From Asterias amurensis (taxonomy: Eukaryota; Echinodermata; Asteroidea; Forcipulatida; Asteriidae): a stretch of DNA of 64,000 nt. Under the pieces are notes generated by a model. That model was not told the DNA's origin, made no database searches, and saw only the letters and a program-made list of their open reading frames with translations. The DNA is taken from contig NC_092655.1 in NCBI RefSeq assembly GCF_032118995.1, forward strand, positions 12,224,406-12,288,405, given 5' to 3'. Positions 281 through 58,154 of this stretch are shown in pieces. The translations under genes were made by a program, and so were the position numbers. Positions within the stretch are counted from its first letter, which is position 1. Each line of letters opens with the position of its first letter.

Positions 281-710
281 GTTTGAGTTCATACAGACTG
301 CGATCAGCCTCTCCAAAACCGTCCCAGTCCAAATCATCTTGAGCCTGTAACGATAAAAAAAAAATGAACAAATGGTTTTAGACATTTTGGGGCTACCGTG
401 AGCTAGCGATTTAAAAAGAAAAGACTCATTCCTGTCATGCACAGCTATGCAAATTTACATGGGAAAGGGCACATAAGGAGCCTTAGCCGAGATTGGGAAC
501 AGTTGGGAATATATACCCCTGCACCCCCCGGGTGACACCCATGTAAATGTGTCAAAGGGGCAAAATGGCAATTGCCCCGTTCCTACGCTCTGAGTGAAGT
601 ATCACGCCATGGACAGGTCAGAGTAGAGATACATAAATAAATGTTTGTCTTACCACTGCTCCCTTGGTTGTCAAGAGGCTGAACAGTAACACAAGGGTGA
701 AGACCTCCAT
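281..710 (-). CDS. F-type lectin gene C, first two exons (gene runs off left edge)
   Basis: Exon 1 is 710-654: an ATG followed by a 19-residue hydrophobic signal peptide (MEVFTLVLLFSLLTTKGAV), ending at a GTAAGA donor in phase 0. Exon 2 is 344-281. It follows a CAG acceptor and encodes an acidic linker beginning AQDDLDWDGFGEAD, ending in phase 1 at a GTACGT donor. Both exons match exons 1-2 of genes A (49983, 49581) and B (29845, 28472) almost exactly, and the flanking non-coding DNA also aligns. The FTP domain exons would lie at negative coordinates and are not visible. By analogy this is the start of a secreted multi-domain F-type lectin. The copy looks undamaged as far as it can be seen. 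Confidence 0.8.
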
Positions 711-11870: not shown

Positions 11871-12235
11871 TTAAAGACAATGGACACTATTGGTAATTGT
11901 CAAAGACCAGTCTTCTCATATGGTGTATCTCAACATATGCATATAATTACAAACCTGTGAAAATTTGAGCTCGATTGGTCGTCGGAGTTGCGAGATAACT
12001 ATGAAAGAAAAAACACCCTTGTCACACGAAGTTGTGTGCTTTCAGATGCTTGATTTCGAGACCTCAAGTTCTAAACTTGAGGTCTCGAAATCAAATTCGT
12101 GGAAAATTACTTCTTTCTCGAAAACTACGTCACTTCAGAGGGAGCCGTTTCTTACAATGTTTTATACTATCAACCTCTCCCCATTACTTGTACCAAGTGA
12201 GGTTTTATGCTGATAATGTGTCCACTGCCTTTTAA
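11871..12235. mobile_element. TTAA MITE, copy 1 (parent of the hybrid)
   Basis: It begins TTAAAGACAATGGACACTATTGG and ends GTGTCCACTGCCTTTTAA. The internal palindrome is GATTTCGAGACCTCAAG and its complement. The right arm lacks the usual AATTACCAATA segment. Confidence 0.85.
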
Positions 12236-15200
12236 ATGTAATACCTTTCCTGTTTTAAACTTCAGTAAAAAAAGAAAAACATTATGGTAAATTGCAAAAA
12301 TGTCAGTTTACCCCTTTACACATAAACAATTCATTATTTTGTCGCAAGCTGAAGATAGTTCAAACCACCACATCTCTTGAGAAACACAAACTTTCACGAC
12401 CAATTAGGAGTCCATTTGTATTTTCCCCAGCTGCCCACGTGACAATGTGCTCTCTAGGGGCTGTTCTAGTTTTTGGAAATTGTATTGACACATTTTGCAG
12501 AAACAATAATGTTTGATACGTCATTAATTGATTGATTGATACAAACAGTGCGAAGATCTAGCGTGGTTCATTTGAACATCCGTTTCCCACGCCTATGCTT
12601 ACCGTGCAAAAGAAACCAAATTCCGCATCATTTTAACGGACACCTCAATCGATTACACGGGAGACTTCCAAGGTAGCGACTATAACAATGTAACAACAGC
12701 TTGTTACACCCAGTCTAGTCTAGCAACACCGAACCCGATTGTTATTTTCAAGTACAAGAAAATAATGTTCGACCAGGAGTGACCCCGGACGCGCTGGAAG
12801 TCGTATACAGTCTGTCAGCAGCCCATGCGGTAATAAGCTGATTAATAATATAATAATAATAATAACGAAGTTTTATACAGCGCACGTATCTACCAAACAA
12901 GGTACTCAATGCGCTGAGTATATACAAACTTTCAGAAAGATAGGTCATTGCAGTGATGAATTTTGAGACCCAATTAGTTAGCACCTTATAAGGGTTTACA
13001 AGGTGCTACTGCGCATAGAGCAGCCACAGCCAGGAACACCGGGGCGAACACCTTCTCTTTTTTGATAAGTGCACTGGGTTCTTTTACATGCGTTACACAA
13101 CACATGGGACCAACGGCTTTACGTCCCATCCGAATTGTTTTATCTGCAGCATTTTGTGTGGTTTTCATGCGTGACCTCGGTTTGAATATACAATTAGTCC
13201 AAAGGGCTTCTGGAACTCGGTAATTTTCGGCCTTTTCTGAAAAGTCTCAACCAAAATAATGTACCAGTAAATTGAAACGAAGAGCATGTCTGTCGTGTGG
13301 AAAAAAAATTAAAAGGAGAAAATTGTACGTAAAAAATGGGAAAGGAAATTAAAAGACCTGCGGCTAGACTGTATACAGTCGTCCGGAACAAATGTATAGC
13401 GTCTTGGTTTTAGACGTCGATCTTATGAGTATAACCTAATGCAAATTATATGCTAATTTATGCAATTAAAAGAAAGGTTGCTTAACGCCCCTTTGAAAGC
13501 ATTCTTATTCTTCGTTCAGCTATTGAGACTTTGGGTTTTTGTTTGCATAAATATCGCTCCCACATTGTTGACTACAAACTTTGTTTGTTTGTGTGTTTGT
13601 TTGTTCTGTTGTCTTTTTTGTTTTAGAGTATGTACACAATAAATCCCATAGTAATTACCCCACTGATATGTGAGAAGTGGAACAAGTCGATTAACCGGAT
13701 ATATCAAATAGTAGCCGTGATCTTTGCTATTATTCAATCGGGTCATCAAGGGGCGGGCAAATGGGAGAAGGTGTGAACAACAGCCTTTGTAGTGTTTGGT
13801 GTTTTGGCGTTAGGTTGTTAGTGTGGGAATGCTTTATTTCATTGAAAGCGTTCGAGTTGATGACGTTGTTTTTGTTTTTTGTTTTTTTTATTTTATTTTA
13901 TGGAGCATTCCAGGCGCCATATTCCAGGCGCCATAGAACCAGTTTTCCTTTACACATCACCAGTGTCCAGTGTACTAAATGGCAAAATGAAGTGTCACGA
14001 CAAAAACTACACATCCGAGTTTCAAGTTCTTTTCAATTATAGAGACTATGAGAATTGCATAATCATTAGCATTAGTTTACCAAGATCCTGGTGTTTTGGT
14101 GTTAGGTTGTTAGTGTGGGAATGCTTTATTTCATTGTAAGTGTTCGGGTTGATGACGTTGTTTTTTGTTGATTTATTTTATGGAGCACTCCAGGCGCCAT
14201 GGAACCAGTTTTCCTTTACACATCACCGCCTCCAAAACTATTCAGTCATTACTCATCAAACGTTTTACAAGTTGAAATGGTTCCCACGACTCCGAAATAA
14301 CGAAAATTGCGTATAACAATTAATTGACGAAGGGGAAAATCAGCAACGTTTAAAACGGTGCAGGGCCAGACGAAAATTTGAGCTCAATCGGTCATCGAAC
14401 TTGCGAGATAATAAAAAAAGGAAAAAACACCCTTGTCACACGAAGTTGTGTGCGTTTAGATGGTTGATTTCGAGACCTCAAGTTCTAAATCTGAGGTCTT
14501 GAAATCAAATTCGTGGAAAATTACTTCTTTCTCGAAAACTACGTCACTTCAGAGGGAGCCGTTTCTTACAATGTTTTATACTATCAACCTCTCCCCATTA
14601 CTTGTACCAAGTGAGGTTTTATGCTGATAATGTGTCCACTGCCTTTTAAATGTAATACCTTTCCTGTTTTAAACTTCAGTAAAAAAAGAAAAACATTATG
14701 GTAAGTTGCAAAAATGTCAGTTTACCCCTTTACACATAAACAATTCATTATTTTGTCGCAAGCTGAAGATAGTTCAAACCACCACATCTCTTGAGAAACA
14801 CAAACTTTCACGACCAATTAGGAGTCCATTTGTATTTTCCCCAGCTGCCCACGTGACAATGTGCTCTCTAGGGGCTGTTCTAGTTTTTGGAAATTGTATT
14901 GACACATTTTGCAGAAACAATAATGTTTGATACGTCATTAATTGATTGATTGATACAAACAGTGCGAAGATCTAGCGTGGTTCATTTGAACATCCGTTTC
15001 CCACGCCTATGCTTACCGTGCAAAAGAAACCAAATTTCGCATCATTTTAACGGACACCTCAATCGATTACACGGGAGACTTCCAAGGTAGCGACTATAAC
15101 AATGTAACAACAGCTTGTTACACCCAGTCTAGTCTAGCAACACCGAACCCGATTGTTATTTTCAAGTACAAGAAAATAATGTTCGACCAGGAGTGACCCC

Positions 15201-16917
15201 GGACGCGCTGGAAGTCGTATACAGTCTGTCAGCAGCCCATGCGGTAATAAGCTGATTAATAATATAATAATAATAATAACGAAGTTTTATACAGCGCACG
15301 TATCTACCAAACAAGGTACTCAATGCGCTGAGTATATACAAACTTTCAGAAAGATAGGTCATTGCAGTGATGAATTTTGAGACCCAATTAGTTAGCACCT
15401 TATAAGGGTTTACAAGGTGCTACTGCGCATAGAGCAGCCACAGCCAGGAACACCGGGGCGAACACCTTCTCTTTTTTGATAAGTGCACTGGGTTCTTTTA
15501 CATGCGTTACACAACACATGGGACCAACGGCTTTACGTCCCATCCGAATTGTTTTATCTGCAGCATTTTGTGTGGTTTTCATGCGTGACCTCGGTTTGAA
15601 TATACAATTAGTCCAAAGGGCTTCTGGAACTCGGTAATTTTCGGCCTTTTCTGAAAAGTCTCAACCAAAATAATGTACCAGTAAATTGAAACGAAGAGCA
15701 TGTCTGTCGTGTGGAAAAAAAATTAAAAGGAGAAAATTATACGTAAAAAATGGGAAAGGAAATTAAAAGACCTGCGGCTAGACTGTATACAGTCGTCCGG
15801 AACAAATGTATAGCGTCTTGGTTTTAGACGTCGATCTTATGAGTATAACCTAATGCAAATTATATGCTAATTTATGCAATTAAAAGAAAGGTTGCTTAAC
15901 GCCCCTTTGAAAGCATTCTTTTTCTTCGTTCAGCTATTGAGACTTTGGGTTTTTGTTTGCATAAATATCGCTCCCACATTGTTGACTACAAACTTTGTTT
16001 GTTTGTGTGTTTGTTTGTTCTGTTGTCTTTTTTGTTTTAGAGTATGTACACAATAAATCCCATAGTAATTACCCCACTGATATGTGAGAAGTGGAACAAA
16101 TCGATTAACCGGATATATCAAATAGTAGCCGTGATCTTTGCTATTATTCAATCGGGTCATCAAGGGGCGGGCAAATGGGAGAAGGTGTGAACAACAGCCT
16201 TTGTAGTGTTTGGTGTTTTGGCGTTAGGTTGTTAGTGTGGGAATGCTTTATTTCATTGTAAGCGTTCGAGTTGATGACGTTGTTTTTGTTTTTTGTTTTT
16301 TTTTATTTTATTTTATGGAGCATTCCAGGCGCCATATTCCAGGCGCCATAGAACCAGTTTTCCTTTACACATCACCAGTGTCCAGTGTACTAAATGGCAA
16401 AATGAAGTGTCACGACAAAAACTACACATCCGAGTTTCAAGTTCTTTTCAATTATAGAGACTATGAGAATTGCATAATCATTAGCATTAGTTTACCAAGA
16501 TCCTGGTGTTTTGGTGTTAGGTTGTTAGTGTGGGAATGCTTTATTTCATTGTAAGTGTTCGGGTTGATGACGTTGTTTTTTGTTGATTTATTTTATGGAG
16601 CACTCCAGGCGCCATGGAACCAGTTTTCCTTTACACATCACCGCCTCCAAAACTATTCAGTCATTACTCATCAAACGTTTTACAAGTTGAAATGGTTCCC
16701 ACGACTCCGAAATAACGAAAATTGCGTATAACAATTAATTGACGAAGGGGAAAATCAGCAACGTTTAAAACGGTGCAGGGCCAGACGAAAATTTGAGCTC
16801 AATCGGTCATCGAACTTGCGAGATAATAAAAAAAGGAAAAAACACCCTTGTCACACGAAGTTGTGTGCGTTTAGATGGTTGATTTCGAGACCTCAAGTTC
16901 TAAATCTGAGGTCTTGA
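12090..16917. repeat. 2414-bp tandem segmental duplication
   Basis: Unit 1 (about 12090-14503) and unit 2 (about 14504-16917) are nearly identical with a constant 2414-bp offset; for example the sequences at 12292 and 14706, and at 13460 and 15874, match. Each unit begins and ends inside a copy of the TTAA MITE. No convincing coding exon is present in either unit. Short open frames are copied with the unit and look incidental. Confidence 0.92.
14373..14648. mobile_element. Hybrid TTAA MITE at the duplication junction
   Basis: Left of about 14500 the sequence matches the MITE at 16787-17083, including GAGGTCTTGAAATC. Right of 14514 it matches the MITE at 11871-12235, including TTCGTGG and the shortened right arm. 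Confidence 0.88.
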
Positions 16918-17083
16918 AATCAAATTCGCGGAAAATTAGTTCTTTCTCGAAAACTATGGCACTTCAGAGGGAGCCGTTTGTCACAATGTTTTATACCATC
17001 AACCTCTTCCCATTACTCGTCACCAAGAAAGGTTTTATAGCAATAAATATTTTTAATAATTACCAATAGTGTACACTGCCTTT
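16787..17083. mobile_element. TTAA MITE, copy 3 (other parent of the hybrid)
   Basis: The left end is truncated: host sequence CAGGGCCAGACG joins directly to GAAAATTTGAGCTC. The right end is AATTACCAATAGTGTACACTGCC. The related locus at 31500-31545 lacks this element. Confidence 0.8.
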
Positions 17084-18035: not shown

Positions 18036-18165
18036 TCTCTCAACCAGATTTTTTGGGGGGCCTGTGACGTCATATGTATATATTGCCTGCACGCAAAATA
18101 ATATTTGACATGTTTTTTTACCAGGTCTAAATAGTCACTACAGACACTGGACACTATTGGTAATA

Positions 18166-18925: not shown

Positions 18926-18934
18926 TTGGTAATA

Positions 18935-19121: not shown

Positions 19122-19480
19122 TATTGTCAAAGACAAGTCTCATCACTTGGTGTATCTCAACATATGCATGAAATAACAAACCATTGAAAATTTGAGCTCA
19201 GTTGGTCGTCGAAGTTGCGAAATAATATTGAAATAAAAACACCCTTGTCACATGAAGGTGTGTGCTTTCAGTAGCTTGATTTCGAGACCTCAAAATCTGA
19301 TTCTGAGGTCTCGAAATCAAAATCGTGGAAAATTACTTCTTTCTCGAAAACTACATCACTTCAGAGGGAGCCGTTTCTCACAATGTTTAATACTATCAAC
19401 CCCCATTACTCGTTACCAAGCAAGGTTTTATGCTAATAATTATTTTGAGTAATTACCAATAGTGTCCACTGCCTTTAAAC

Positions 19481-20406: not shown

Positions 20407-20521
20407 TCTTTTTAAAGACACTGGGCACTATTGGTATTTGTCAAAGAACAGTGTTCTCACTTTGTGTATCTCAACATATATGCATAAAATAACAAACCTG
20501 TGCAAATTTGAGCTCAATCGG
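20407..20521 (+). repeat. TTAA MITE fragment at the gene B breakpoint
   Basis: It begins AAAGACACTGGGCACTATTGG and stops at GAGCTCAATCGG. The next base starts sequence homologous to gene A intron 10 (CAACCCATTATTTCAATAAAG). Confidence 0.75.
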
Positions 20522-20562
20522 CAACCCATTATTTCAATAAAGCAGTTGTGTTGAGTACTTAC

Positions 20563-20882
20563 TGCAACAATCCCCACGATTGAGAAGGACAACTTTACTG
20601 ATGCAGCGTTTATCTTGAAGGTCAACCATCCACCATGGATTATCCTCTTCCTCTGTTAAGTACACAAAATAACACAGAACATTAAAACCAGTGTAAGCAA
20701 ATTACATCAGTACATGCTATCCTCATCAAAGTGGTTCAGATTTGTTGACTTACTTGTGTGTGTACAGATGTGTTCTGGTGACAGCTTAGTGTCCTCGTTT
20801 CCATCTGCAGCTGTGACCGGTGAGTACTTATTGCCCAGGAGAGAACTTTGCTTCGTTGGCTTACCAATTAGAGATACATCGC
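20563..20882 (-). CDS. Gene B FTP domain 3, missing its last exon
   Basis: Exon 9 (20882-20754) reads VSLIGKPTKQSS...CTHT. Exon 10 (20652-20563) reads NPWWMVDLQDKRCISKVVL and ends LLNRGDCC, the intact first half of the fucose-binding signature. The following RL(T)NAVVRAG exon present in gene A at 35214 is not found downstream. Confidence 0.8.
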
Positions 20883-23800
20883 CTGTTTAAAAATCAAAAG
20901 GTAATTATTTCAAGTTTAGGGTAATGTTTAGTGTATTGTGACTTTGATGTCCGAATTGCTTGGCATTTAATCTCCACTAAGTTTCAGCTTATCAAGTAGA
21001 TGTGATGACAGTAAAGCTGGTTTGATATTGGACATTTACATAGATTTGTTCAGTGTCCAATATCGATGTACCAGATAGACATTCACTGTACAAACCTACT
21101 TGAATGTAAAATGTCCAATGTCAAATATCGAAAAAGCAACATTGATATTCTCCTGTACAAACCTTAATGAATGTCAAATGTCCAATATTAAACCCACTTT
21201 ACTTTTATGTAGGATGACGATTGATTATCGTTGTTTGCTTGTGTTTAACCCTTTACCGATCCAATGTGTTAGAGCATTACATACGAAGTGTGAACAAAAG
21301 AGGTCCACACAAGGCAGTGCTTTGAAACACTATGTGGACTTAAACACGTCCAAAAATAGTTTTTTACAGTGTTGAAGAATATGATTTTTTCTTTCAGTGT
21401 ACAGAATAAAGGGATGTCCACAGAGTGTATGTAACATAGAGCTGTATATGTTTACAGTGAACATTGACAGGCATATATAAGTATACTAACGTTCGTCACT
21501 TTCACACGGGTCAACATCAAGTTCGTAGATCTCTACTTCACGTAAATGCAACCATTCTTTCCTGCCTGGTATGTTAACACTGACGTAACGCGCCTTCAAC
21601 GGTCGTTGACAGTAGACGGCTAGATCTCCACCTGGAATCTTGGCTTGGTCAGCGGTGATCGCTGATCCACATTGAGCATTTTTATGTATGTTTTTATTTG
21701 TTCCTGCTCTTACGACGGCATCTGCTAATCGTTTGCCTAATGAAATAAATGTGAAGTACAGAATAAAAATCTCATCCCACGCACACACAAACACCCACAA
21801 GCGCCCAAATTATTATGGATTAGGTTTGTGGGGTCTTGCTACTGTTCTTTTATTCCCCTTTCTAAATAATTCCCTTGTGGGGTCCATGTTGAACAAATAA
21901 TTCCCTTGTGGGGTCCAGGTTGACCAAAAAGTTCCCTTGTGGGTTCCATATTGAACAAAGAATTCACCTGTGGGGTCCAGGTTGAACAAAGAATTCCCTT
22001 GTGGGGTCCAGGTCGAACAAAGAATTCCCTTATGGGTTCCATGTTTAACAAAGGATTCTCTTGTGGGCTTCAGGTTGAACAAAGAATTCCCTTGTGGGTT
22101 CGAGGTTGAACAAATGATTCCCTTGTGGGTTCCATGTTGAACAAAGAATTCCCTTGTTGGGTCGAGGTAGAACAAATAGTTCCCTTTTGGGTTCCATGTT
22201 TAACAAAGAGTTCCCTTGTGGGGTACAGGTTGAACGAAGAATTCCCTTGAGGGGTCCTCCATTGTTCTATAATGTAAAACACAAGACCGAAAAGCTTGAT
22301 TTCACCTTTTGAAGAGCATTCACAAAGTTACAATACTGATAATTGCATTGAGATTTATTTATTTATTATTTATTTGAATAAAAGACTTTACTGAAATTGT
22401 TTCCTCCTCATTCTGCCATATCTTTAACAACACTGGGTAATATAGGTTTTTCCCCGAAGCAGCCTATCTCACTTTTATGCATCTTGTTCATTGCATAATT
22501 CAGTTTTATTTCGTCATTCAATCTCATTTAAGGCATACAGCATGCAGTGTGTATGTACGAAAAAATGTAGTTGAAACGTGATTATTGATGTGGATTGACG
22601 TAGGTTAATGGCAGATCTCTGTGAGTGACCAAAAGAGGGACATTTGTCTAAAAAGAGACGTCACACGTCGAGGCTCGTGAAGTACACCCGACATCTGTTG
22701 TTAACCTACATCAATCCACGTCCATAATCACCTTCCAGTTACATGTTTTGTAAACACTGCATGCCTTAAAATGTGATTGATGTGAAAAAATTAACTGAAT
22801 ATGCAATGAAGAAGAATGCATGCAAAAGAAGTAGGCTGCCTCTTGCTATAAATGACGGGGAAGTCCTATACTTACTACTTGAGGCACGGTTGAACAAAAC
22901 CACTTTACTGATGCAGTGTGTGTCTAGAAGATCTACTCTCCACCAAGGATCAAAATCTTGACCTGCAAAAAAAAAATATTTTAATAATGAATGAACAATT
23001 ATTAATCCCCTAACCCCAAAAAGTTTGAAAATCACTCACTGCCCGCCTGAATATTTTGTGACGTCACTGATCCGAGGTCTGTCTCCACTACCCTGATTCG
23101 TGGCGGGTCAACAAATACTTACCTCAGCAGCTGTTCGGACATTTTCAAAAGCAAACCTTAAAGAGTTAGTATTCGCTGGCAGCTACAAGGTTTCCCAGAA
23201 TTGTTTGCTCATTGAGTTTTATCGGAGACAATAGTTGCTGATAAAAGTATCGATCAACAAGTCCAGGATTGAATGTTTGTAAACGCAATACAAACTTACA
23301 GTCAATGTGAATGAGTGTTAAAGGCAGTGGACAATCAATAATTTTTAGCATACAAACCTAGGCCCATACTATGTAACGAATAATGGTGGGCTGTTGATAG
23401 TATAAAACATTGTGAGAAACGGCTCCCTCTGAAATCACTTAGTTTTCGAGAAGGAAGTATTTTTCCCTTGACTTCGAGACGTCAGATTTAGAATTGGAAA
23501 TTGTCATGATAGTTCAAAAACTGGTATCGAAACAGGATTTTGGAGCAACACATTTCTTTTACCGTGATCTCTTACAGGAAAAACATACTCTAGATGTTTT
23601 ACGAATCAATATAACTTTTCTAGACTAACATTTCAAAAATTGGATAACTCCAGTTATTTGTTGCAATATGTTTCAGTTTCAAGGGATAAACCAATCTCTC
23701 CTTCCTGTTGCTTGGTTTGAGCAGCAAAGGGTAAAAACACCTATCCCTTCCACTTTTTGGCTGAGTTTTAGCACCAGATTCATACTTTGTTCTCCCAGAA

Positions 23801-26800
23801 TTATAGTAAAGAAAACAACATAGCTTTTTGTAAAAACTAAAAAAAATGAACCTGTTCTTGAATCTAAGTGCTTATAGTGGGATTGATGGGCAACGTAGGA
23901 GGTTGCTTACCGTCCAGCAGAATGACTTACCGGTGTGACTGAAACCTTCATATACAAACTTGTTAATAAAACCATCGGCGGCCCTCTCCGCTGAATATTT
24001 GGCAGCATCGTATTCTGAGCTTTGTTCGGTCGGCAAACTCAGAGTGGAGAGCCTCCCTGTGTAAGAAGTAAATTTGGGTTAGAGGTAAATTGGGGTCTGA
24101 GGTAACAGAGGTTACTTTTTGGTTAAGAAGTAAATTTGGGTTTAGAGGAAAAGTTTGGTTTGGAGGTAAATTTGGGTATAGAGGTAAATTTGGGTTTATT
24201 AGGTAAAGTTGGGTCACAGGTATTAGTAAAGAGACAACTGTGGGTTTAGAGGTAAATTGGGTTTAGAGGTACGTTGGTGGTTTCGAGGTAAGTATGAGTT
24301 TAGAGGTAAATTTTTGTTTAAAGTAAACTTAGGTTAAGAAGTAAATTTTAGTTAAGAGGTAAATTTGTCATTAACTTTAAGAATGATTACCAATGGTATG
24401 CCTTCCCTTTAGAGTAACTTTAGTGGAGAAAAAAGTTCTGATTAATACTCCCTGACGTACTTTCTTGTTGATGGCAACGTTGAATAGGATACTCTTGAAG
24501 CATAACTTCTCGCAGATGTAGGAATTCCTTGTTTGGTAAAACAACGTTGACCTCACTTGCCAACAACGGCGGGTTACAGTAAACATCAATGACACCCCCA
24601 GGCTTCTCGGCTTGTCTGGCTGTCACTGGTACCCCGCACCGTCCATTCGCATTGTAGAATCGACTGACCCCAGCTCGGACAACAGCATTCGCTAAACGTG
24701 TACCTGTTCAAAAACAAAATGTACAACTTTCAGTCGTTTCGACCAATTAGTGTTCAGTATGTCACTGCCTAACAAGCAGTGGAGAAAGGGTTTTGTAGGT
24801 TAGGGGATAAAGTGGATCTGGATAAACCTGATTTAGTCGTGATTTAGTTCCCTTTCATACGTCACTTTCTTCGAAATGCTCTTTTATTGCATTAAAGGCA
24901 CTGCGACACTATTGATAATTTCTCAAAATAATTGTTAGCATCAAAGCTTATTGGTAACAAGCAATAGAGAGCTGTTAAAAGTATAAAACATTTCGAGAAA
25001 CATTTCCCTCTGAAGAAACGTAGTTTTCGAGAAAGAAGTAATTTTTCCTCAAAAAAAAAAAATCGAATTCGATTTCGAGAATAAGATTTTAAGGTCCCGA
25101 AATCAAGCATCTGAAAGCACAAAGCTTCGTGTGACAAAGGTGTTACAAAGGTGTTTTTCTTCCGTTATTCTCTCGCAACTTTAACGACCATTTGAGTTCA
25201 ACTTCCACAGTTCAAATTTCCACAGGTTTGTTACTTTGTACACGTTGCGGTACACCAAGTGAGAAGACTGGTCTTTCACAATAACCAACGGTGTCCAGTG
25301 TGAATAAATGAATAAATGAATAATACAAAGTTTTCACGAGTTTGGGTAAGTTTCTACACCTTTTTTTCACAAGGGGAGATTGGTTATGCGCTATTGTACG
25401 CATGCGTGAACATCACCCTAGGGACGTCCATCATATGAAAAGATGGTGGCACACACACAGATAATAACATGTCTTATTTTCAGGCGAACAGTCGATATTA
25501 GCTCTTATCTTCAAGTACGTGCTTATAATACCCCTTACCAATATTCTGCCCTTTCATTGGTTTAGAGCGCGTCACATGATATGTCTTAGTTTTACTAGAC
25601 GACGGCCGTGTTGATAGTGCATCGGTTTGCCATGCGCTTATAGTCCGAAGACTATCACACGGCGTGCAGTACCAAGACGTCCGTTGCGTGTACGAGGATG
25701 ATAAATTAATATAATTGTAATCATTTCGGATTACATGACACTACATGCAGTACAGTAAAAGTTTTCGCAATCTGTTTTCGCGTCGTCCGTGGATTGTAGC
25801 ATTCAGGTCTGTAACTTAATAGTACAGTATTTAGAATTAATGTTTGGGGTGTTGTAAAACAAATATTGGCTGCTTTTACTCGTGCAATGGTTAAAATTAC
25901 AACACCCCTTCCTTTGATTCTATCTGTTGATTGGCCGAGAGCGTGTCACATGGTGCTGTGTATTTTTTACTCTTGTACATGTTCACCGACCAAAGTAACT
26001 ACTCAATGGACTATTCAACGATAGCCTAGCAACCGATGTACTAGTGCATGGATACCCTGGTACCCAGACTACATTATTCAACAATCCATTATTTATTTCC
26101 ATACAAACATAAACAACTATAAACAATATGATTTTACAAAACTGAAACTGTATGACACATTAAAGCAAAACCTTGTAGGCTGGGATGCCTTGTACAAAAT
26201 ATAGACATACTTCAGTGATAAGTTGATCTTAAGAATTAAAACCCAAATTCAATACTTACAGCAGAGTTCTTTACGATTGAACAGGGTGACCCTTCCGATA
26301 CAATGTTCCTCTTTGAGTTGGACAGTCCAGAACGGACGCTCATCATCCTCTGTTTTTAAAAGAAGCAAAACATCGAGATTAGCTTAGAAAGAAACAGCAA
26401 CAATGCTTTCGCAAGTCGTTTTCAGCCAGAGGAACAACACGTAAAACTCAGTTAACCAGAACTGAAACACTAATGTTACTTATCTCGCGATAAAAGTGAT
26501 GCTATTTAGCCCATCACTGCTTTAATTTAAAAAAATACTATCGTGAAGTCATTTGACGGTTTGTCAAGTGTGCATGGTTGGCAATAAATACATATTCATA
26601 AATACCTCAGACAATTTCGCTATTCCTATTGGTGGAGAGCGCGTCGCGTGGGCTGTTTAAACGGTGGGTAATGACCAGCTGGAGCTGTTTATAACCGGTT
26701 GTTTTCGGATACGTTTACATGAATACCACCCCAACTCATTTAGAGATTGTTATTACATGGTGTTACCGCAAACTCTTCTATATCTTATTTCCACCATGCA

Positions 26801-29800
26801 AAGTTTCAAATCCTACTTATGAAGACTACTACTTGCCCGAATGCATATCCGAAAACTGTCCCAGTCAAAAAAATATACAACACCCGTACAGAGCTCAAGG
26901 ACGTCGGAAACGGAGATAAGTTTGACAGAGCTTCGTTCTTTAAGACGCATTTTAACCAAAAAGGCATTTATGAATGGAAAGAAAATAGTATATAGTGACT
27001 CGTTCTTAAACTGCCGTTTAAGACTTTGTAGGGTCGTGGCCTTGCGAGAAAGGCCCGAGCATATCGCACGGCAGCGACCCTGCCGGTTGTCAGGCCCCGA
27101 TAACGAGAACGAAAACGAGAACGATAAAAGTGCACGCCCTTGATTGGTTGAATTGCTCCACGCAGAATACACACACGCTCATTCAACCAATCGAGGGCGT
27201 GCATTTTTATCGTTCTCGTTTTCGTACTCGTTATCAGGGCCTGTGTGACTGGGCCTTAAAAACTCGTCGCTACCCTTTTATTCCCTTATTAAATAAACAC
27301 AATCAAATCCTTATCCATTTCAAACAAATAACTGTTCATAAGCTCATACTCACTTGTGTGGAAGAATCCATTCTCTATGTCTCCGTCCACACCTTTTGAT
27401 GATCGGGTGTTTTTGCTATAGGTCGAACTCTGTTCCGTGTTGAATCCGATGATGGATAATGCTGTAAGAAAACAGAAAAACATTTCAAGGGATTGTTAAC
27501 GTTTGGTTAATGGAACCCACTGTTTGTTTCAATCCTGTGTAGCCGTATACCACACAACTAAAACCTGTGAACATTTCATTTAGTTTGTAATTTTTTTGAG
27601 ATATCGCCGAAACCCTAGAGAGGTTTATTGCACGACCCAGGTGAATACCACCACAATCTGATCAACGCTGACCTTTTGAAATGAAGTTTTCACATGTTAG
27701 TTTTTATTGTATACTATAATATGTATACTAACCCTGGACGAAATCGAAATCGATATATCGTCAGGTAAATATCGCCGATATGACGATGTATCGTGAAGAT
27801 TTTTGAAATATGAAAGTGCCCTTCAGAAGGGGACAACAATGGCTCTCAATCGCACGCTAGAAACAGTTTAACCGCAAGGATGAAGACAAACAAAATACAT
27901 CATGACTGTTGAATGTAAAAAAATAAAAATAAAAATAAGCCTGACGCCTTTCTCATATTCAAACCTGTGGGGTAACACAAATTACCCTTTCTCTAAAACT
28001 AATTAAAAAGTGTCGTTCATCATACTGTTTTTGATATCAACAACACTCAAGTGGTCTTTATACCAAAAGTATGTTCTGTATTGTCACTAATTTGTTGACG
28101 ATTGCAAAAGGAACTTTTAAGGCCCGGTCACACAGGCCCCGATAACGAGAACGAAAACGAGAACGATAAAAATGCACGCTCGCGATTGGTTGAACTGATC
28201 CACGCAGAATACACACACGCTCATTCAACCAATCGAGGGCGTGCATTTTTATCGTTCTCGTTTTCGTTCTCGTTATCGGGGCCTGTGTGACCGGGCCTTA
28301 ATAACTGAAGCAAGGTTCAGGCATGGGAATGGAACCTGGGTCTCAACATGATGTGAAAAGCAGGGAGTGAACCACTTCGCTAACTATAATCCCAAAGTTT
28401 CTACGTACGTTTGAGTTCATACAGACTCCCATCTGCCTCTCCAAAACCGTCCCAGTCCAAGCCATCTTGAGCCTTTAACGAGAAAAAAATGAACAAAAAC
28501 TGGTTTTAGACATTTTGGGGCTACCGTGAGCTAGTGATTTAAAAAGAAAAGATCCATTCCTGTCATGCACAGCTATGAAAAAGCAAAACAAATATTAACA
28601 AACTTGAGAACATTTACATAACAATCGGTCGACAAATTTGTTAAGCCAAGGTGGCCATTGAAGAACATGACGAAATTGTTCCATACCTAGGCATTGGCTC
28701 CAGTGTCATAGGGGATTGGGTCCCCTGTGTTTGTGTCACAACACGACATGACTGTATAAAAGGCAGTGGACACTATTGGTAATTACTCAAAATAATTATT
28801 AGCATAAAACCTTTCTTGGTGACAAGTAATGCGGAGCGGCTGATGGTATAAAACATTGTGAGAAACGGCTCCCTCTGAAGTGCCATAGTTTTTGAGAAAG
28901 AAGTAATTTTCCACGAATTTGATTTCGAAACCTCAGATTTAGAACTTGAGGTCTCGAAATCAACCATTTAAACGCACACAACTTCGTGTGACAAGGGTGT
29001 TTTTTTTCTTTCATTATTATCTTGCAACTTCGATGACCGATTGAGATACACCAACTGTCCACTGCCTTTAAACATAGAAAGTCAACAGAGGACGGTGAGA
29101 TGATTTGCTTACGATTTGTTGGATGGGAGACAAAATAACCTATGTGACAACGGCAGAGTCTCAGCTTGGTTCGAAAAAGGCCCAAAGTAGATTTTGTAAA
29201 CGTCCTTTTGCCTATGGAGGCGACAGGGCCACGAACCGAGGTTTGGACAAGGCCTATATACAGGGAGCGGGGAGCACGAGCCGAGTTTCGTAAAAGGCCG
29301 AAAGGGAGCATCGCGAGCCGAGGATGGGAAAGGGCACTAAAGGAGCCTGAGCCGAGGTTTGGAACAGTTGGGGGATATATAACCCTGCACCCACACCCCC
29401 CCCCCCGGGTGACGCCCATGTAAACGTGTACTGGAACATCTCAAGCGGGAAAGATTCTATGTCAAAGGGGCAAAATGGCAATTGCCCCGTCTGTGCGGCA
29501 CCTTAATGTAGCCCGAGCCCTAAAAATGTAGCCTGACCTAAATGTAGCCCCCAAACATGTACCTAAATGTAGCCCGGACCTAAATGTAGCCCCAATATGT
29601 ACCCAAATGTAGCCCGGACCTTAATGTAGCCCCAACGGGCTACATTTAGGTACATGTTTGGGGCTGCATTTAGGTCAGGCTACAATTAGGGCTTGGGCTA
29701 CATTGTGGTGCCGCACACCCGTCCCCCCGCTCTGTGAAGTATCACGCCATGGACAGGTGAGAGATACAGAAACAAATGTTTGTCTTACCACTGCTCCCTT

Positions 29801-29845
29801 GGTTGTCAAGACGCTGAACAGTAACACAAGGATGAAGACCTCCAT
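20563..29845 (-). CDS. F-type lectin gene B, 3'-truncated paralogue
   Basis: Ten exons were read: 29845-29789, 28472-28409, 27461-27354, 26349-26260, 24703-24461, 24056-23931, 22962-22876, 21736-21491, 20882-20754 and 20652-20563. All lie between AG acceptors and GT donors and keep one frame for 1240 nt. They encode a signal peptide, an acidic linker, two full FTP domains and two-thirds of a third. The eleventh exon, which in gene A closes domain 3 and carries the stop, is absent. Reading through the last donor would end at a TGA at 20536-20534 after about nine extra residues. Domain signatures are altered (see sub-entries). A secreted carbohydrate-binding role is the family expectation, but this copy may be non-functional or changed in specificity. 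Confidence 0.8.
21491..24056 (-). CDS. Gene B FTP domain 2, sugar-site motif eroded
   Basis: Exon 6 (24056-23931) reads LPTEQSSEYDAAKYSAERAA. Exon 7 (22962-22876) reads DPWWRVDLLDTHCISKVVL. Exon 8 (21736-21491) contains RLADAVVRAG, QCGSAIT and ARYVSVNIPGRKE. Exon 7 is 87 nt, against 90 nt in gene A. The Arg-X-Asp-Cys-Cys of gene A (FNRWDCC) becomes FNRASS, so the acidic residue and both vicinal cysteines are gone and one residue is deleted. Exon 8 uses GTTAGT as donor instead of GTAAGT. Confidence 0.85.
21866..22262. repeat. 31-bp minisatellite in gene B intron 7
   Basis: About 13 imperfect units of AATTCCCTTGTGGGGTCCAG plus GTTGAACAAAG. The open frame this creates on the minus strand is a by-product of the repeats. 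Confidence 0.9.
22560..22735. repeat. Imperfect palindrome in gene B intron 7
   Basis: GTGATTATTGATGTGGATTG pairs with the complement of CAATCCACGTCCATAATCAC near 22707-22733. A related half is at 39405-39487 in gene A, so it predates the gene duplication. Confidence 0.55.
23319..23500 (-). repeat. TTAA MITE fragment in gene B intron 6
   Basis: Inverted relative to the main copies: TTAAAGGCAGTGGACA, then GAGAAACGGCTCCCTCTGAA. It is cut off after the start of the internal palindrome. Confidence 0.7.
24063..24372. repeat. ~17-bp minisatellite, gene B intron 5
   Basis: Repeats of GAGGTAAATTTGGGTTTA with variants. The same repeat occupies the equivalent gene A intron at 41390-41590 and 43255-43500. 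Confidence 0.85.
24461..27461 (-). CDS. Gene B FTP domain 1
   Basis: Exon 3 (27461-27354) reads LSIIGFNTEQSS and ends FFHT. Exon 4 (26349-26260) reads FWTVQLKEEHCIGRVTLFN. Exon 5 (24703-24461) reads RLANAVVRAGVSRFY, RCGVPV and the EVNVVLPNKEFLHLREV strand, and ends at a GTACGT donor. Where gene A has Arg-Lys-Asp-Cys-Cys-Gly-Ala-Arg, this copy reads Arg-Lys-Glu-Leu-Cys-Cys-Thr-Arg. The length is kept, but the Asp is replaced by Glu and the cysteine pair has moved by one position. Confidence 0.85.
24893..25300 (-). mobile_element. TTAA MITE in gene B intron 4, inverted
   Basis: Starts ATTAAAGGCACTGCGACACTATTG and ends CCAACGGTGTCCAGTG. The internal palindrome is degenerate and interrupted by a poly-A run. 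Confidence 0.75.
25470..26100. other. Gene B intron 4, possible palindromic repeat
   Basis: Blocks such as ACACCCCTTCCTTTGATTCT and GCGTGTCACATGG echo AATACCCCTTACCAATATTC and GCGCGTCACATGA at 25530-25580. Possible repeat arms; no exon is seen. Confidence 0.35.
27090..27258. repeat. Palindromic MITE (ATAACGAGAACG family), gene B intron 3
   Basis: GGCCCCGATAACGAGAACG on the left pairs with the complement of CGTACTCGTTATCAGGGCC on the right, around a short central loop. Confidence 0.75.
28121..28297. mobile_element. Palindromic MITE with TTAA flanks, gene B intron 2
   Basis: Almost a perfect hairpin starting GGCCCGGTCACACAGGCCCC. It is bounded by TTAA at 28117-28120 and 28298-28301. The matching place in gene A (about 49406) lacks it. 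Confidence 0.85.
28409..29845 (-). CDS. Gene B signal peptide and linker exons
   Basis: Exon 1 (29845-29789) encodes MEVFILVLLFSVLTTKGAV with a hydrophobic core typical of a secretory signal. Exon 2 (28472-28409) encodes AQDGLDWDGFGEADGSLYEL. Exon phases (0, then 1) match genes A and C. Confidence 0.85.
28758..29071 (-). mobile_element. TTAA MITE in gene B intron 1, inverted
   Basis: Begins AAGGCAGTGGACACTATTGG and ends CTGTCCACTGCCTTTAAAC, with the internal GATTTCGAAACCTCAGAT palindrome. Confidence 0.85.
29492..29717. mobile_element. 226-bp palindromic insertion in gene B intron 1
   Basis: The ends TGTGCGGCACC and GGTGCCGCACA are inverted. CCCGTC is present on both sides (29486-29491, 29718-29723). 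Gene A at about 49848-49862 has the uninterrupted site (GCCCCGTCCCCCCGC). The interior is repeats of AATGTAGCCC and its complement. Confidence 0.85.
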
Positions 29846-30080: not shown

Positions 30081-30305
30081 AGGCACTGGACATGGCTGGT
30101 AATTGTCAAAGTCAAGTATGCTCACTTTGTGTATCCAAACATCCGCATTACATAACATAATGTGTGAAAATTGGTACTCAATTGGTCGTCGAAGCTGCAA
30201 GAGAATAGTGAAAGGAAGATAGAAAAACACTCTTGGCAGCTTGCAAATGTCTGAGAAATTATGAAAAGACTTCCGCTCTTATATTACCAGTAGTGTCCAC
30301 TGCCT
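30081..30305. repeat. Internally deleted TTAA MITE upstream of gene B
   Basis: TTAA at 30077-30080 and 30306-30309 enclose AGGCACTGGACATGGCTGG and CCAGTAGTGTCCACTGCCT. It is orthologous to the remnants at 946 and 50224. The right end survives only here. Confidence 0.7.
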
Positions 30306-30309
30306 TTAA

Positions 30310-31960
30310 CGGACTCCTCAATCGAATACAAGCAAAACTTCCAAGGTAGCGACTATAAAAATGTATAAAAATACAGGTTACACCCAGTCTAGTCTATAAG
30401 ACTGAACCCGATTATTATGTTCAAGTACAAGAAAATAATGTTCGATTAGGAGTGACCGGACGCGCTGGAAGTCGTGTACAGTCTATCAGTCCATGCGTTA
30501 ATAAGCATAATTGCCGGGTTTTATCTGCAGCATTTTGTGTGGTTTTTCATGCGTGGCCTGGGTTTGAATATATAATTAGTCCAAAGGGCTTCTGGAATTC
30601 GGTCATTTTCGGCCTTTTCTGAAAAGTCTCAACCAAAATAATGCATCAGTAAAATAAAACGAAGAGCATATATGTCGTTATGTATGAGCAAAAAATTAAA
30701 AAAGAGAAAATTGTACGTAAAAATGGGAAAGGAAATTTAAATACCTGCGGATTGACTGTATACAGTCGTCCGGAAAACTGTATAACGTCTTGGTTTTAGA
30801 CGTCGATCTTTTTATTAATGAGCCGAACCTAATGCAAATTATATGCTAATTTATGCAATTAAAAGAAAGGTTGCTTATTTCCCCTTTGAAAGCATTCTTA
30901 TTCTTCGTTCAGCTATTGAGACTTTGGGGTTTTTCATTTGCATAAATATCGCTCCCACATTGTTAACTACAAACTTTGTTTGTTTGTGTGCTTGTTTGTT
31001 CTGTTGTTGTTGTTTTAGAGTATGTACACAATAAACCCCATAGTTATTACCCCACTAATATGTGAGAAGTGGAACAAATCGATTATAACCGGATACATCA
31101 AATAGTGGCCGTGATCTTTGCTATTTTTCAATCGGGTCATCAAGGTGCGGCCAATGAGAGAAGGTGTGAACAACAGCCTTTGTAGTGTTTGTAGGTTTCA
31201 AGTGTAAATGGGTTAATGGTCAATGGGTTATGGATGTGTTTTGGTGTTAGTGTGGGAATGCTTTATTTCATTATAAAGTGTTCACGTTGATGACGTTGTT
31301 TTTTTTGCTGATTTATTTTATGGAGCATTCCAGGCGCCATGGAACCAGTTTTCCTTTACACATCACCGCCTCGAAAACTATTCAGTCATTACTCATCAAA
31401 CGTTTTACAAGTTGAAATGGTTCCCACGACTCCGAAATAACGAAAATTGCGTATAACAATTAATTGACGAAGGGGAAAATCAGCAACATTCAAAACGGTG
31501 CAGGGCCAGACGTTGTATATTATCCATATGACAAACAAATTAAACAAGAAGCACGGGCAAATCAAGTTGGTATACATCAGTTTAAAAATACTCACATCGC
31601 GGGAATGTGACTCCGATGTCAACCACACAGTCACAAGGAGTGGGGTAGTGGGTAGCCTTCACCCCGGGACATCATGTCAGACCATGCCCCAAAACCAGGG
31701 TGCCATTTTTTCGCGGTTGTACCAAATTACTGTTTCGGTCATTGGCCAGTGATTTACCATCGAAACAGTTACTGGTAACGACTGCGAAAACGCGCCCTAG
31801 ACTACAGCACAGTACCAAGCCAGCGACCAGGCCAAAGTGTCGTCCTTTCACTGGCACAGATGAGCGCCGTCAATTCCCGTGGTGTAGCCAGTCAGCGTCC
31901 CATCCCGGGCTCTGAGTCGAAGACCGTAGCGCTGGCAAATGCATACCGGCAATAGTGTAA
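30310..31960. repeat. Third copy of the 12-17 kb duplicated segment
   Basis: Matches about 12635-14371 and 17084-17400 with moderate divergence, for example CTTCCAAGGTAGCGACTATAA and GGAGCATTCCAGGCGCCATGG. It lacks the MITE found at 16787. No gene is recognised. Confidence 0.85.
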
Positions 31961-33077: not shown

Positions 33078-33084
33078 CTGGTAC

Positions 33085-34400: not shown

Positions 34401-34404
34401 GTTG

Positions 34405-34846: not shown

Positions 34847-35873
34847 TTAGGGACCCATGTCATCTGGGACATCCTCTAGAATCTTGACCTCACCACCAAG
34901 AACCTTCTTTTGCTCCTGGTCTTCGACAGGTTCTTTTGGTTCGGGTGCCTTTATGACTAACGGTTCAGGTTCTCGACACCCGTCTTCTCCGATGAACTCC
35001 TTTACTGTCACCTCACACAGCTGTAGAAACGAATGCTTATCAGAGGGGATGTCGACGCTAATGTAACGCGCCACCAACGGTGGGTCACATACCAACTCAA
35101 TTGTGCCTCCGCGTGGAGTTGCCATGGCAGGACTGACTACATCTCCGCACTGGGGATTGCTTTGAATGTTGCGACTGGTACCCGCGCGAACAACAGCATT
35201 CGTCAAACGCTCACCTAGTGATAGAGATGAACAAAATAACAGAGAATTTGTTTTCATTAATGAAACAAAAGTAACCCATTATTTCAATAAAGCAGTTGTG
35301 TTGAGTACTTACTACAACAATCCCCACGATTGAGAAGGACAACTTTACTGATGCAATGTTCATCTTCAAGGTCTACTATCCACCATGGATCATCCTCTTC
35401 CTCTGTTTAGTACACAAAATAACAACAAAACATTAAAACCAGAGTTAACAAATTACATCAGTACATGCTATTGTTATGGGACTATGATCGCCAGTAGCCG
35501 TTAGCCTGGTCTGGGAGGTTGGAGTCTCCGTCTTTAATTTACCTAAGTTTATTAAGTTAAGTTATTAAATAAAGCTATTGTGTTCTCTAATAAGAAGTCT
35601 CACAAGCCTGTTTTATTTGAAGTTTGTGTACTAGTATCCCGGTAGGCTGACAAAGCCATAATACTATTCTAACCTCATCTAGGTATTTTGCACAACTAAC
35701 ATGACATGTTGTATCCACAAAGAAGTTACGATTTGTCGACTTACTTGTGTGTGTACAGATAAATTCTGGTGACAGGTTAGTGTCCAGGTTTCCGTCTGCA
35801 GCTTTATCTGGCGAGTACCTATAGTCATAGTAAGAACTTTGCTCCGTCGGCTTACCGATTATAGACAAATCGC
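34847..35873 (-). CDS. Gene A FTP domain 3 and acidic C-terminal tail
   Basis: Exon 9 (35873-35745) reads LSIIGKPTEQSS...DKAADGNLDTN. Exon 10 (35402-35313) reads DPWWIVDLEDEHCISKVVL and LLNRGDCC. Exon 11 (35214-34847) reads RLTNAVVRAGTSRN, QCGDVV, ARYISVDIPSDKH and LQLCEVTVKEF. About 48 residues follow, rich in Glu, Pro and Lys and ending DVPDDMGP. The RGDCCSER motif is intact, and the exon phases (1-1) are consistent across all joins. Confidence 0.9.
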
Positions 35874-38800
35874 CTGTTCAGAAACCAAAAAATATATTTA
35901 GTGTTTTGTGACTTTGTTGTCCGAATTGCTTTGCATTCAAACTCAACTAAGTTTAACAGCTTACCAAGTAGATGTGATAACGGTCCCACTACAGCGATAA
36001 CGAGAACGATAACGATCACGACGCAAAGAGAACGCGTTCTATTGGTTGAATTGCTTCACGCAGAATACGCACACGCCCATTCAACAAATAGAATGCGTTC
36101 TCTTGGCGTCGTTATCGTTATCGTTCTCGTTATCGCTGCAGTGGGACTGGGCCTTAAAGCTACTTTGAAATTGGGCATTTTGACATTCACATAGGTTTGT
36201 GCAGTGTCCACAATCGATGTACAATTAATGGGTACAAACCTACTTGAATGTGCTATTTCCAATATCGATATAGCAACGTTGACAAACCTACTTGAATGTG
36301 CTATGTCCAATATCGATATAGCAACGTTGACAAACCTACTTGAATGTGCTATTTCCAACATCGATATAGCAACGTTGACAAACCTACTTAAATGTGCTAT
36401 GTCCAATATCGATATAGCAACGTTGACAAACCTACTTGAATGTGCTATGTCCAATATCGATATAGCAACGTTGACAAACCTACTTGAATGTGCTAAATAA
36501 ATTATTTAATTCCAATATCGATATAGCAACGTTGACAAACCTACTTGAATGTGCTATGTCCAATATCGATATAGCAACGTTGATTTTCGCTGTACAAATC
36601 TCAGTGAATCACTGAGATTTGTACAGCGAATTGTGAATGTTGCTATATCGATGTTTGTCATTTGACATTCAAGTAGGTTTGTTGGACGTATCAAACATCA
36701 AACTTACTTTGCTGCCATGGTGTGATGGTTGATTATTGTTATTTGTGTTTACCCTCTACGATTTTTTTTATATTTTTTTTATGCAAGTCGCCTCACACAC
36801 AAGGCCTGAAGGCCACTTCAAGGTGTGGGCTACAATTGTTTTTTCCAGAGGCCATTGCCACCTACTCCTAGGGCTGAAACAGGGTTACCCCTTTTACAGT
36901 CCATACGAATGTAGGCTTGGGTATCATCAATTCGAAGCCTGGCCGGTAGCAAGTGTCACGTAGTTTTTTATGTAGCAAGTGTCACGACACGACCGAGATC
37001 CGAACCCACACCCTGCTGATGATCATCATGTATATTATTGTGACCCTCTCAAAAAATTAAATCATCGGATAAGGATAGAGGCTACGGCAGTTTGGTTTAT
37101 TGACACTCGGTGCACAGTTACCATTTTATTCCTGTAACAGACGAATAAATATGTGTTGCCAGGTTTTCACTGGAAATCAGTATGAGGGTTGTGGAAGCGC
37201 GCGAAATTGAAATGCATCTCAAGAGAGGGCGCTCCTCATGAATAATTAAATGTTACATAATTTAAAAAAATGCAATAAAAATAATAGTTGGGGTACAATT
37301 CCTATGACCGTCACATTATTATACAGATATTGACTGGTAATGAGGTAACTACTGTACGTCTATTCCCCCGAGGGACTTTGAGTGACCAGAAGAGCGACAT
37401 TATTTCCCGAGGCCGAAGGCAAAAGGGAAGTAGGCCCCTCTTCTGGTCACTCACAGGCCCGAGGGGGAATAGACGTACACTAGTTACCGAATTAAGCCAG
37501 TCAATTATGTGTTTTATAACACAGCTCGTTCTTAAATAAGGGAATCAATGTGTGGTGAAGAGGTTTCAACTAGTGGTTTACTCCCAAAGAGGCCTGGTTC
37601 TTGATAATTTTACGGGGACGAAGTCGAGGTAAATTATCAAGAACCAGGCCTCGGCAGGTTTAAACCACTAAGTGAAAACTAGTTCATAAAATTAATACAC
37701 TTTCGGTAAAGAAACATCAACACTTTGGGTCAAAAAGTAAAATAAATGCAAACATTACAATTGTTCAATGATTTCTTTCAACACACCACCCCTCCAGCTA
37801 TGAAATGGTAAAGCCCTCCGCCGCCCTCGGGTAAACAACTCCTTATAAGGGAATGCTGTGCGCGTCGCGCGTATCGCGTAGTGTGGCACAACTGTCGCGG
37901 CCGTTGCTCTCGACCAATAGGGATGAAGAAACTGTCTTATAATCACAGGTGCAAGGTCGCGTGTCACGCCCATGTTTCAAGGTATTAATGAATGTGAAAT
38001 AAGAACAGAAATCTTGAAAAGAAAGGAAGTTTTGTTGTTGCTGTTCAATGTTCAAGTCAAGAGAGGGCGCTGTAACGGAGGCTTTTTTCAAAGACAATTA
38101 AGTGCCCGCTCAGGAACTAGTTCCCGCAAAACACGTGCGCGCAATCACTAGATATAAGTTCATCCCACGTGACCGTGTTTCAGCCAACCAGATTACAGAA
38201 CAAGCAAGGGGTGTCTTATAAAACTGACTATACTTACGTTCGTCACTTTCACACTGGTTGACGTCAAGTTCGTAGATCTCTACTTCACGTAGTTGCAAAT
38301 ATTCTTTTCTGCCTGGTATGTTAACACTGACGTAACGCGCCGATAACGGTGGTCCACAGTAAACGGCCAGAACTCCGCCTCTAATCTTGGCTTGTTCAGC
38401 GGTGATTGCTGATCCGCATCGGGTATTTGTATGTATGCATTTGCTTGTTCCTGCTCTCACAACAGCATTCGATAAACGGTCGCCTAATGAAATAAATGGA
38501 AAAAATACAATATCAAAATCTTACTTTGGTCACACGCACACATTCAATGTTTTGCATCCTTGTGGAAACAGTATTTAGAATTCCCCTATGAGTCCAAAGG
38601 AAGATCTTGGGCATTAAGTGGAGTGACTTCGTCCGCAACGAGGAGGTCAGAGATCGATCACAACAAACTCCAGTGTCCAATACAATCTGTGGGCGGCTCA
38701 TGAACTGGCTGGGCCATGTTTCGCGGCTCCCCCCTTCGAGACTCGCCAATCAAGTCCTGTGGTGGAACCCGCCGGGAAGGAGGAGGAGAGGCCGACCTAA

Positions 38801-57770: not shown

Positions 57771-57775
57771 CTTAA

Positions 57776-58154
57776 AGACAGTGGACACTATTGGTAATTG
57801 TCAAAGACCAGTCTTCTCACTTGGTGTATCTCAACATATGCATAAAATAACCAACCTGTGAAAATTTGAGCTCAAATGGTCGTCGAAGTTGCAAGATATG
57901 AATGAAGTAAACAAACACCCTTGTCGCACGAAGTTGTGTGCTTTTACATGATTGATTTCGAGACCTCAAATTTTAAACTTGAGGTCTCGAAATCAAATTC
58001 GTTGAAAATTACTTCTTTCTCAAAAACTACGTCACTTCAGAGGGAGCCGTTTCTCACAATGTTTTATACTATAAACCTCTCCCCATTACTCTTTACCAAG
58101 AAAGGTTTTATGCAAATTATTATTTTGAGTAATTACCAATAGTGTCCACTGCCT
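57776..58154. mobile_element. Full-length TTAA MITE
   Basis: TTAA at 57772-57775 and 58155-58158 flank AGACAGTGGACACTATTGG...CCAATAGTGTCCACTGCCT. The central GATTTCGAGACCTCAAA palindrome is intact. A good family reference. Confidence 0.9.

Follow-up and report, generated by a model that had tools for sequence, protein, structure and literature searches.

In F-type lectins (fucolectins), as set out in a review of the family (PMC5712786), the sugar is hydrogen-bonded by His52, Arg79, and Arg86, a vicinal Cys pair provides a van der Waals contact, and an acidic residue forms a salt bridge to the first Arg, with Asp81 and Arg79 also contacting the subterminal sugar. The same source states that most duplicate tandem lectins have one domain without the Cys pair. 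Both domains of MsaFBP32 from striped bass (here FBP32; Protein Data Bank [PDB] entry 3cqo), a tandem two-domain F-type lectin, recognize fucose, the C-domain with a Phe that replaces the disulfide, and in oyster sperm bindin, positively selected sites lie around the pocket of the lectin domains and the His-Arg-Arg triad is lost in some isoforms (PMC5712786). Here we describe a locus of the sea star Asterias amurensis (RefSeq contig NC_092655.1, positions 12,224,406 to 12,288,405; this whole stretch of 64,000 nucleotides is referred to as the window) that holds three tandem paralogues of one lectin gene, all on the minus strand and named genes A, B, and C.

Gene B is a diverged tandem paralogue of a gene for a triple F-type lectin. 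Its domains 1 and 2 are complete and in frame and keep His-Arg-Arg, the loop between the two Arg residues has been rebuilt in both, and domain 3 has been cut by a rearrangement. The explanation that we favor, with a probability of roughly 0.52, is that gene B encodes a two-domain lectin whose glycan preference has shifted, the third domain being in decay; the strongest competing reading is a gene that died recently.

RESULTS

Architecture and family assignment

Gene models were rebuilt with GT..AG introns (Table 1). The product of gene A consists of a signal peptide (recognized by eye), an acidic linker, three complete F-type lectin domains, and an acidic tail, and each domain is encoded by three exons, a, b, and c (d1a is thus exon a of domain 1). 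When the gene B exons are joined, they give 1240 nt (413 codons plus 1 nt) without a stop codon and with GT..AG at 9 of 9 introns. An earlier note on this DNA, made from the sequence alone and centered on d1a to d3b of gene B (20563..27461), had described these 1240 nt as open with clean splice sites, which is correct for the frame and for GT/AG at the nine introns but not for three sites that are weaker than their counterparts in gene A. With a small scoring matrix derived from the splice sites of the genes themselves, the B linker acceptor TTAAAG/G (slash, splice junction) reaches 6.2 bits, compared with 7.9 bits for TTACAG/G in A and C; the d1b donor reaches 7.0 bits in B and 10.2 in A, and the d2c donor, GTTAGT in B, 5.4 bits and 10.4 in A. 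The acceptors of d1a, d2a, and d2b score higher in B than in A.

Every complete domain has its binding His in exon a, an N-R and Cys-pair segment at the end of exon b, and the second Arg at the start of exon c. The b-c intron is in phase 1 and splits the fucose motif, in gene A one base past the second Cys codon, whereas the introns of FBP32 lie elsewhere, at the turn that corresponds to Glu123-Cys124 of the eel agglutinin AAA (PMC5712786). The introns after the first are in phase 1 in these genes, and the gene C linker is in phase 0. Between genes C and B, the signal peptides are 89.5% identical and the linkers 90.5%.

Both the A and B proteins match the Pfam families PF22633 and PF00754, with PF22633 scores of 142.9 bits for A and 110.7 bits for B over three stretches each. 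The solved structures nearest to gene A are FBP32 (3cqo, E 4.5e-37) and AAA (1k12, E 4e-20), and FBP32 is also the best PDB match of B domain 2 (E 5.1e-30) and of B domain 1 (E 6.6e-12). By sequence profile and nearest structures, both genes are assigned to the F-type lectin family. Streptococcal F-type domains (2j1r, 2j22, and 3le0) are distant relatives (E 1e-9 to 2.5e-4; E 0.0027 to 0.022 against B domain 1) in which, as aligned, N-R is not followed by a Cys pair, although the Asp and a later Arg are retained. Candidates for the cation motif, (small hydrophobic)2-D-G-x, read by eye are GVDGN/GVDGD, AADGF, and AADGN. A scan of viral contigs with an alignment of eight domains (B1 and B2 included, B3 left out) produced 23 pattern matches, and a scan of bacterial and archaeal contigs with gene A domain 2 produced 111; neither revealed a relative, and animal relatives would not be expected in such sets. 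Rfam at gathering thresholds returned no match, and among the open-access literature matches listed, none was on these genes by title or start of abstract.

Fucose motifs of genes A and B

The motif reference for the family is the single-domain AAA, and gene A matches its H-X26-R-X-D-C-C-X-X-R in all three domains (RKDCCGAR, RWDCCSDR within NRWDCCSDR, and RGDCCSER). In the shorter form, H-X26-R-X-D-X4-R, the match is likewise found in 3 of 3 domains and is gapless against AAA between H and R; the review prints the spacing as X24 (PMC5712786), while X26 was counted by hand in the AAA sequence. Domain 1 of gene B differs from AAA by having Glu for Asp and an adjacent Cys pair that stands one residue later (RKELCCTR). 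It fits H-X26-R-K-E-LCCT-R, which agrees with the "negatively charged residue" of the review (PMC5712786) but not with the letter D of the formula. Domain 2 reads NRASSSKR; it has no acid, only five residues between the two Arg residues, and one codon less than A, so that of the motif only the triad is kept. Domain 3 has the His, Arg, Asp, and both Cys residues but not the exon with the second Arg. These are the differences that the earlier note had listed: the unchanged R-X-D-C-C-X-X-R of gene A, the Asp-to-Glu change with a displaced Cys pair, the loss of Asp and both Cys residues with a one-codon deletion, and the missing second-Arg exon were all found again. Its account of the fucose site as the Asp, the Cys pair, and two Arg residues omits the third contact residue given in the review, His52 (PMC5712786), and it overstates the damage. 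The His-Arg-Arg triad is retained in B domains 1 and 2, and its three positions belong to the 13 columns that are invariant in the eight-domain alignment.

Because the b-c intron splits the motif, the changes lie at the junction of exons b and c. In domain 1, GACTGTTGCG of gene A is replaced by GAACTCTGCT in gene B, in both cases followed by the donor GTAAGT; 5 of the 10 exon bases differ and the net length is unchanged. In domain 2, TGGGATTGCTGCA is replaced by GCCTCAAGTA, again before GTAAGT, with the loss of one codon after 33 identical columns. The domain 3 motifs differ by a single synonymous change in the second Cys codon (TGT/TGC). Differing columns are concentrated at the ends of d1b (5 in the last 12 versus 10 of 78 elsewhere; Fisher p 0.026) and d2b (9 of 15, counting three gap columns, versus 6 of 75 elsewhere; Fisher p 2e-5). 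These windows were picked with the changes already known, and d1a and d1c contain 12-column windows with more differences (10 of 12) than any in d2b (at most 9).

The closest likeness to B2 is the C-domain of FBP32, NRDSFEKR, in which the Cys pair is also gone and which is also one residue shorter than RGDCC-x-x-R; the two align without gaps across NRASSSKR/NRDSFEKR. Unlike B2, with Ala-Ser-Ser-Ser, the FBP32 C-domain keeps the Asp and has Phe for the disulfide. Judged by these motifs, there is no reason to infer a loss of fucose binding in B1, and in B2 such a loss is uncertain. Since the triad is kept in both domains, the acid in B1, and the spacing of the FBP32 C-domain in B2, a change to a nonfucose role is not demonstrated, and a change in fine specificity would be as good a reading. 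Among the gene B domains, only domain 3 is clearly lost.

Truncation of the third domain

Sequence homologous to gene A ends in gene B at position 20523, inside the d3b-d3c intron (98 bp in A), and the gene is cut short there by a structural breakpoint (20522/20523) and not by point decay. On the far side of the breakpoint, the left part of an interspersed repeat resembling a miniature inverted-repeat transposable element (MITE) is joined directly to the intron sequence. With the A d3c exon as the query (tblastn, cutoff E 1), no B counterpart was found in the window below 20563 besides a chance-level match at 7085-6984 (E 0.40); the other matches were the exon itself, the four other c exons (E 3e-21 to 2e-12), and a chance-level match at 60882-60935 (E 0.55). 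The B counterpart of d3c, including the stop codon, is therefore missing from the window, and B3 has neither the second Arg nor the C-terminal half of the fold. Read through the last B donor, the frame continues for nine residues, SKYSTQLLY, and then stops; AATAAA occurs on the minus strand at 20216 and 20044. It may also be that d3b splices into gene C, for which the phase of a domain exon would fit but that of the linker would not. Of the features by which pseudogenes are recognized, gene B has parts missing relative to its parent but not a disabled frame or disabled splice sites.

Ending at this breakpoint is a tract around d3b (199 alignment columns) that is 93% identical to gene A, introns included. 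The 80-nt intron flanks of domains 1 and 2 are only 49% to 80% identical between A and B, and the identity of the d3b tract far exceeds what a divergence of 25% would leave (p 5e-11). The tract is likely to reflect a recent exchange, or gene conversion, between the copies. Such an exchange with gene A would explain the pristine domain 3 motif in an otherwise incomplete domain. Toward the other end of the genes, identity among the 5' parts of the three copies is 88 to 95% in the longer matches, including introns, with shorter pieces at 80% to 100%.

Divergence and selection between genes A and B

For all exons, the ratio of nonsynonymous to synonymous divergence (dN/dS) of A and B by NG86 was 0.42 (bootstrap range, 0.30 to 0.57). 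By domain, it was 0.43 (0.25 to 0.75) for d1, 0.37 (0.22 to 0.66) for d2, and 0.45 (0.22 to 1.07) for exons a and b of d3; in the bootstrap of domains 1 and 2 combined, 16% of replicates reached 0.5. The Biopython implementations gave 0.43 (NG86), 0.52 (LWL85), 0.52 (YN00), and 0.56 (maximum likelihood). By exon, a comparison that the earlier note had proposed, NG86 values ran from 0.12 (d2b) to 0.99 (d2a) with wide intervals, and the ratio was undefined for the signal-peptide exon, which has zero synonymous changes. The overall values of 0.42 to 0.56, depending on the method, lie below 1, and pairwise ratios of this size show neither positive selection nor neutrality.

Stronger evidence than the pairwise ratio comes from the intact frame. 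Neutral simulations took A as the ancestor, assumed indel-to-substitution ratios of 0.05 and 0.1, and left gene conversion aside. With 0.05 substitutions per site, 0.15% and 0% of 2000 runs (for the two indel settings) ended with frame and splice dinucleotides intact; with 0.10 and 0.18, none of the 2000 runs did so under any of the four settings. The extrapolated limit for neutral drift (5% level) is about 0.023 substitutions per site, roughly one seventh of the half of dS assigned to B (about 0.17). Frame and splice sites that are still intact thus imply that gene B was constrained for most of its history. A long-dead pseudogene was rejected on the same grounds.

The eight B domain exons differ from A at 9 to 22% of aligned bases. 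When the 90 amino acid differences were polarized, 38 fell to B and 22 to A, with 30 assigned to neither side (B excess, p 0.05); without the six motif sites, the counts were 32 and 22 (p 0.22). As replacements fall on both copies, gene A is not simply the ancestral state, and its own domain 1 has changed in the stretch ESHFNN, at which B looks like domain 2. Domain 3 leans most strongly to B (11 versus 3; p 0.057), as decay would predict.

In the complementarity-determining-region (CDR) loops CDR1, CDR2, and CDR4 taken together, dN was 0.389, compared with 0.115 elsewhere (3.4-fold; permutation p 0.0005), and dN/dS was 0.68 versus 0.33, in one run with loop boundaries set by us around the residues named in the review (PMC5712786). 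Single-loop ratios of 0.73 (CDR1), 1.51 (CDR2), and 0.22 (CDR4) rest on 6.4, 2.0, and 5.0 synonymous changes, respectively, too few to be used. The divergence of the loops is relaxed or diversifying; positive selection is not proven, and with ratios of 0.68 for the loops and 0.42 to 0.56 for the whole gene, we rejected it as a demonstrated property of gene B.

Features of the locus and surrounding repeats

Table 1. Genes, exons, and breakpoint features, in window coordinates
Feature	Position	Strand	Description
Gene A, intact paralogue	49983..34848	-	11 exons, 535 amino acids
Gene B, tandem paralogue of gene A	29845..20563	-	Ten exons matching the first ten of A
Gene B exon 1	29845-29789	-	MEVFILVLLFSVLTTKGAV, read by eye as a signal peptide; homologues at A 49983-49927 and C 710-654
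Gene B exon 2	28472-28409	-	Acidic linker; acceptor TTAAAG/G
Gene B d1a	27461-27354	-	Binding His (FFHT)
Gene B d1b	26349-26260	-	Ends in changed motif RKELC(C)
Gene B d1c	24703-24461	-	Second Arg (TRLANAVV)
Gene B d2a	24056-23931	-	Binding His (FSHT)
Gene B d2b	22962-22876	-	Ends NRASS(S), which replaces the Asp and the Cys pair; one codon fewer than A
Gene B d2c	21736-21491	-	Second Arg (KRLADAVV); donor GTTAGT
Gene B d3a	20882-20754	-	ICTHT
Gene B d3b	20652-20563	-	RGDCC intact; last recognizable exon
Gene C, third paralogue	281..710	-	Signal-peptide and linker exons only; remainder past window end
Tract 93% identical to gene A 35273-35471	20523..20720	-	Ends at breakpoint
Left 110 bp of ~390-bp interspersed repeat	20412..20521	.	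MITE-like, with inverted-repeat ends by eye; directly abuts the intron sequence
Longer copies of the ~390-bp repeat	43960..44346, 57772..58158		Also 19123..19478 and others

Between genes B and C lies a long terminal repeat (LTR) retroelement of the BEL/Pao type (3448 to about 10000). Its terminal repeats are 99.2% identical over the 525 bases examined, with the query ended at 10000, and the element is probably a recent insertion. In a scan of four of its reading-frame pieces, Peptidase_A17, reverse transcriptase, and an aspartyl protease passed the Pfam cutoff and one piece was without a match; integrase matches stayed below the cutoff. A tandem duplication at 11959..17038, with a unit of about 2.4 kb, is 98.7% identical over 2667 bases, and much of it resembles 30305..31512, just upstream of gene B. 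Minisatellite arrays are located at 21864..22257, 46126..46925, 54087..54475, and 60375..60534. Segments 54316-54679 and 60375-60738 are 96.7% identical, and segments 17305-17827 and 60738-61264 are 90% identical.

DISCUSSION

On the explanation that we favor, the gene B product would be secreted and act as a two-domain fucose-type lectin whose preference is altered for the sugars around fucose, while domain 3, having lost the second Arg and the C-terminal half, would contribute nothing and be decaying. The last donor, left without a partner, would either be read through to the stop after SKYSTQLLY or be spliced to an unrecognized exon. Several observations weigh against this explanation. Gene B has no known terminal exon; B2 lacks an acid to form the salt bridge with Arg, which the other seven aligned domains have; and three splice sites score below those of A. 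A dN/dS near 0.5 is also what a constrained A and a neutral B are expected to give, and the loop ratio lies below 1; for CDR4, the loop that holds the motif, it is as low as 0.22, from few sites.

Some of these observations would suit a gene that was long functional, lost its 3' end at 20522/20523, and died recently, with the motif changes and weaker splice sites as early decay, a history that we regard as rather unlikely. It is consistent with the absence of a d3c exon from the window, the repeat remnant beside the breakpoint, the lower scores of the linker acceptor and the d1b and d2c donors, and the slight excess of replacements on the B side, which is greatest in domain 3 and fades (p 0.22) without the motif sites. 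However, 1240 nt and nine introns are free of any stop, frameshift, or broken GT/AG, and the motif changes spare the frame and the triad, that in domain 1 being a net-zero change of ten donor-adjacent bases and that in domain 2 the loss of a whole codon. The earlier note had posed early pseudogenization or a change to a nonfucose role under selection for an open frame; this reading holds in part: the simulations speak against long neutral drift of the open frame, but the change of role is not demonstrated for domains 1 and 2, in which the triad is kept. Selection for such a role, with the motif rebuilt because ancestral binding was disfavored, seems improbable to us. Dense replacements at the motif in two domains and the faster divergence of the recognition loops point toward it, as does the precedent of oyster bindin, which resembles these genes in its tandem domains, mid-domain intron, and pocket divergence (PMC5712786). 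Against it stand the triad in B1 and B2, a loop dN/dS that does not exceed 1, and the greater divergence of other stretches (d1a and d1c). In oyster bindin, positive selection, recombination, and splicing act in single-copy genes (PMC5712786), whereas here the divergence is between tandem copies.

The truncation could also be original, with the duplication that gave rise to gene B ending in the d3b-d3c intron. A comparison of 17001-20522 with the region downstream of gene A (33000-34848; blastn, E up to 1e-4) matched only the interspersed repeat, as this history would predict. The preserved frame and splice sites of d3a and d3b, with a dN/dS of 0.45 whose interval includes 1 (0.22 to 1.07), suggest instead that domain 3 was once useful, and the 93% tract points to a later exchange, by which the age of the end is masked. 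We consider a truncated birth unlikely; it is compatible with either a two-domain lectin or a recent death, and its odds are not additive with theirs. An assembly or allele artefact, for which the repeat-rich locus, the nearly identical tandem duplication nearby, and the reliance on one assembly might speak, is very improbable, given multibase motif replacements in otherwise well-aligned exons and the differences from A throughout the eight B domain exons. More speculatively, and with little expectation that it will prove correct, one may think of a germline junctional diversification, in which the binding loop is assembled at a splice junction and donor-side changes swap residues with frame and fold unharmed; domain 1 would then represent a length-cancelling change, domain 2 a whole-codon change, and domain 3 a motif preserved by exchange with A.

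In summary, gene B is a copy within a small animal family of sugar-binding lectins, and its changes would be a fairly ordinary outcome of duplication. Should gene B be dead, it would be a decaying duplicate of the ordinary kind. If it is expressed, the locus would offer a natural series, from the intact domains of A through B1 with its shifted Cys pair to B2 without acid or Cys pair, with which the parts of the motif that determine fucose affinity could be told apart from those that determine fine specificity. With an intron that interrupts the motif, the locus would also allow one to ask whether the position of a splice junction aids the diversification of recognition loops in animal lectins.

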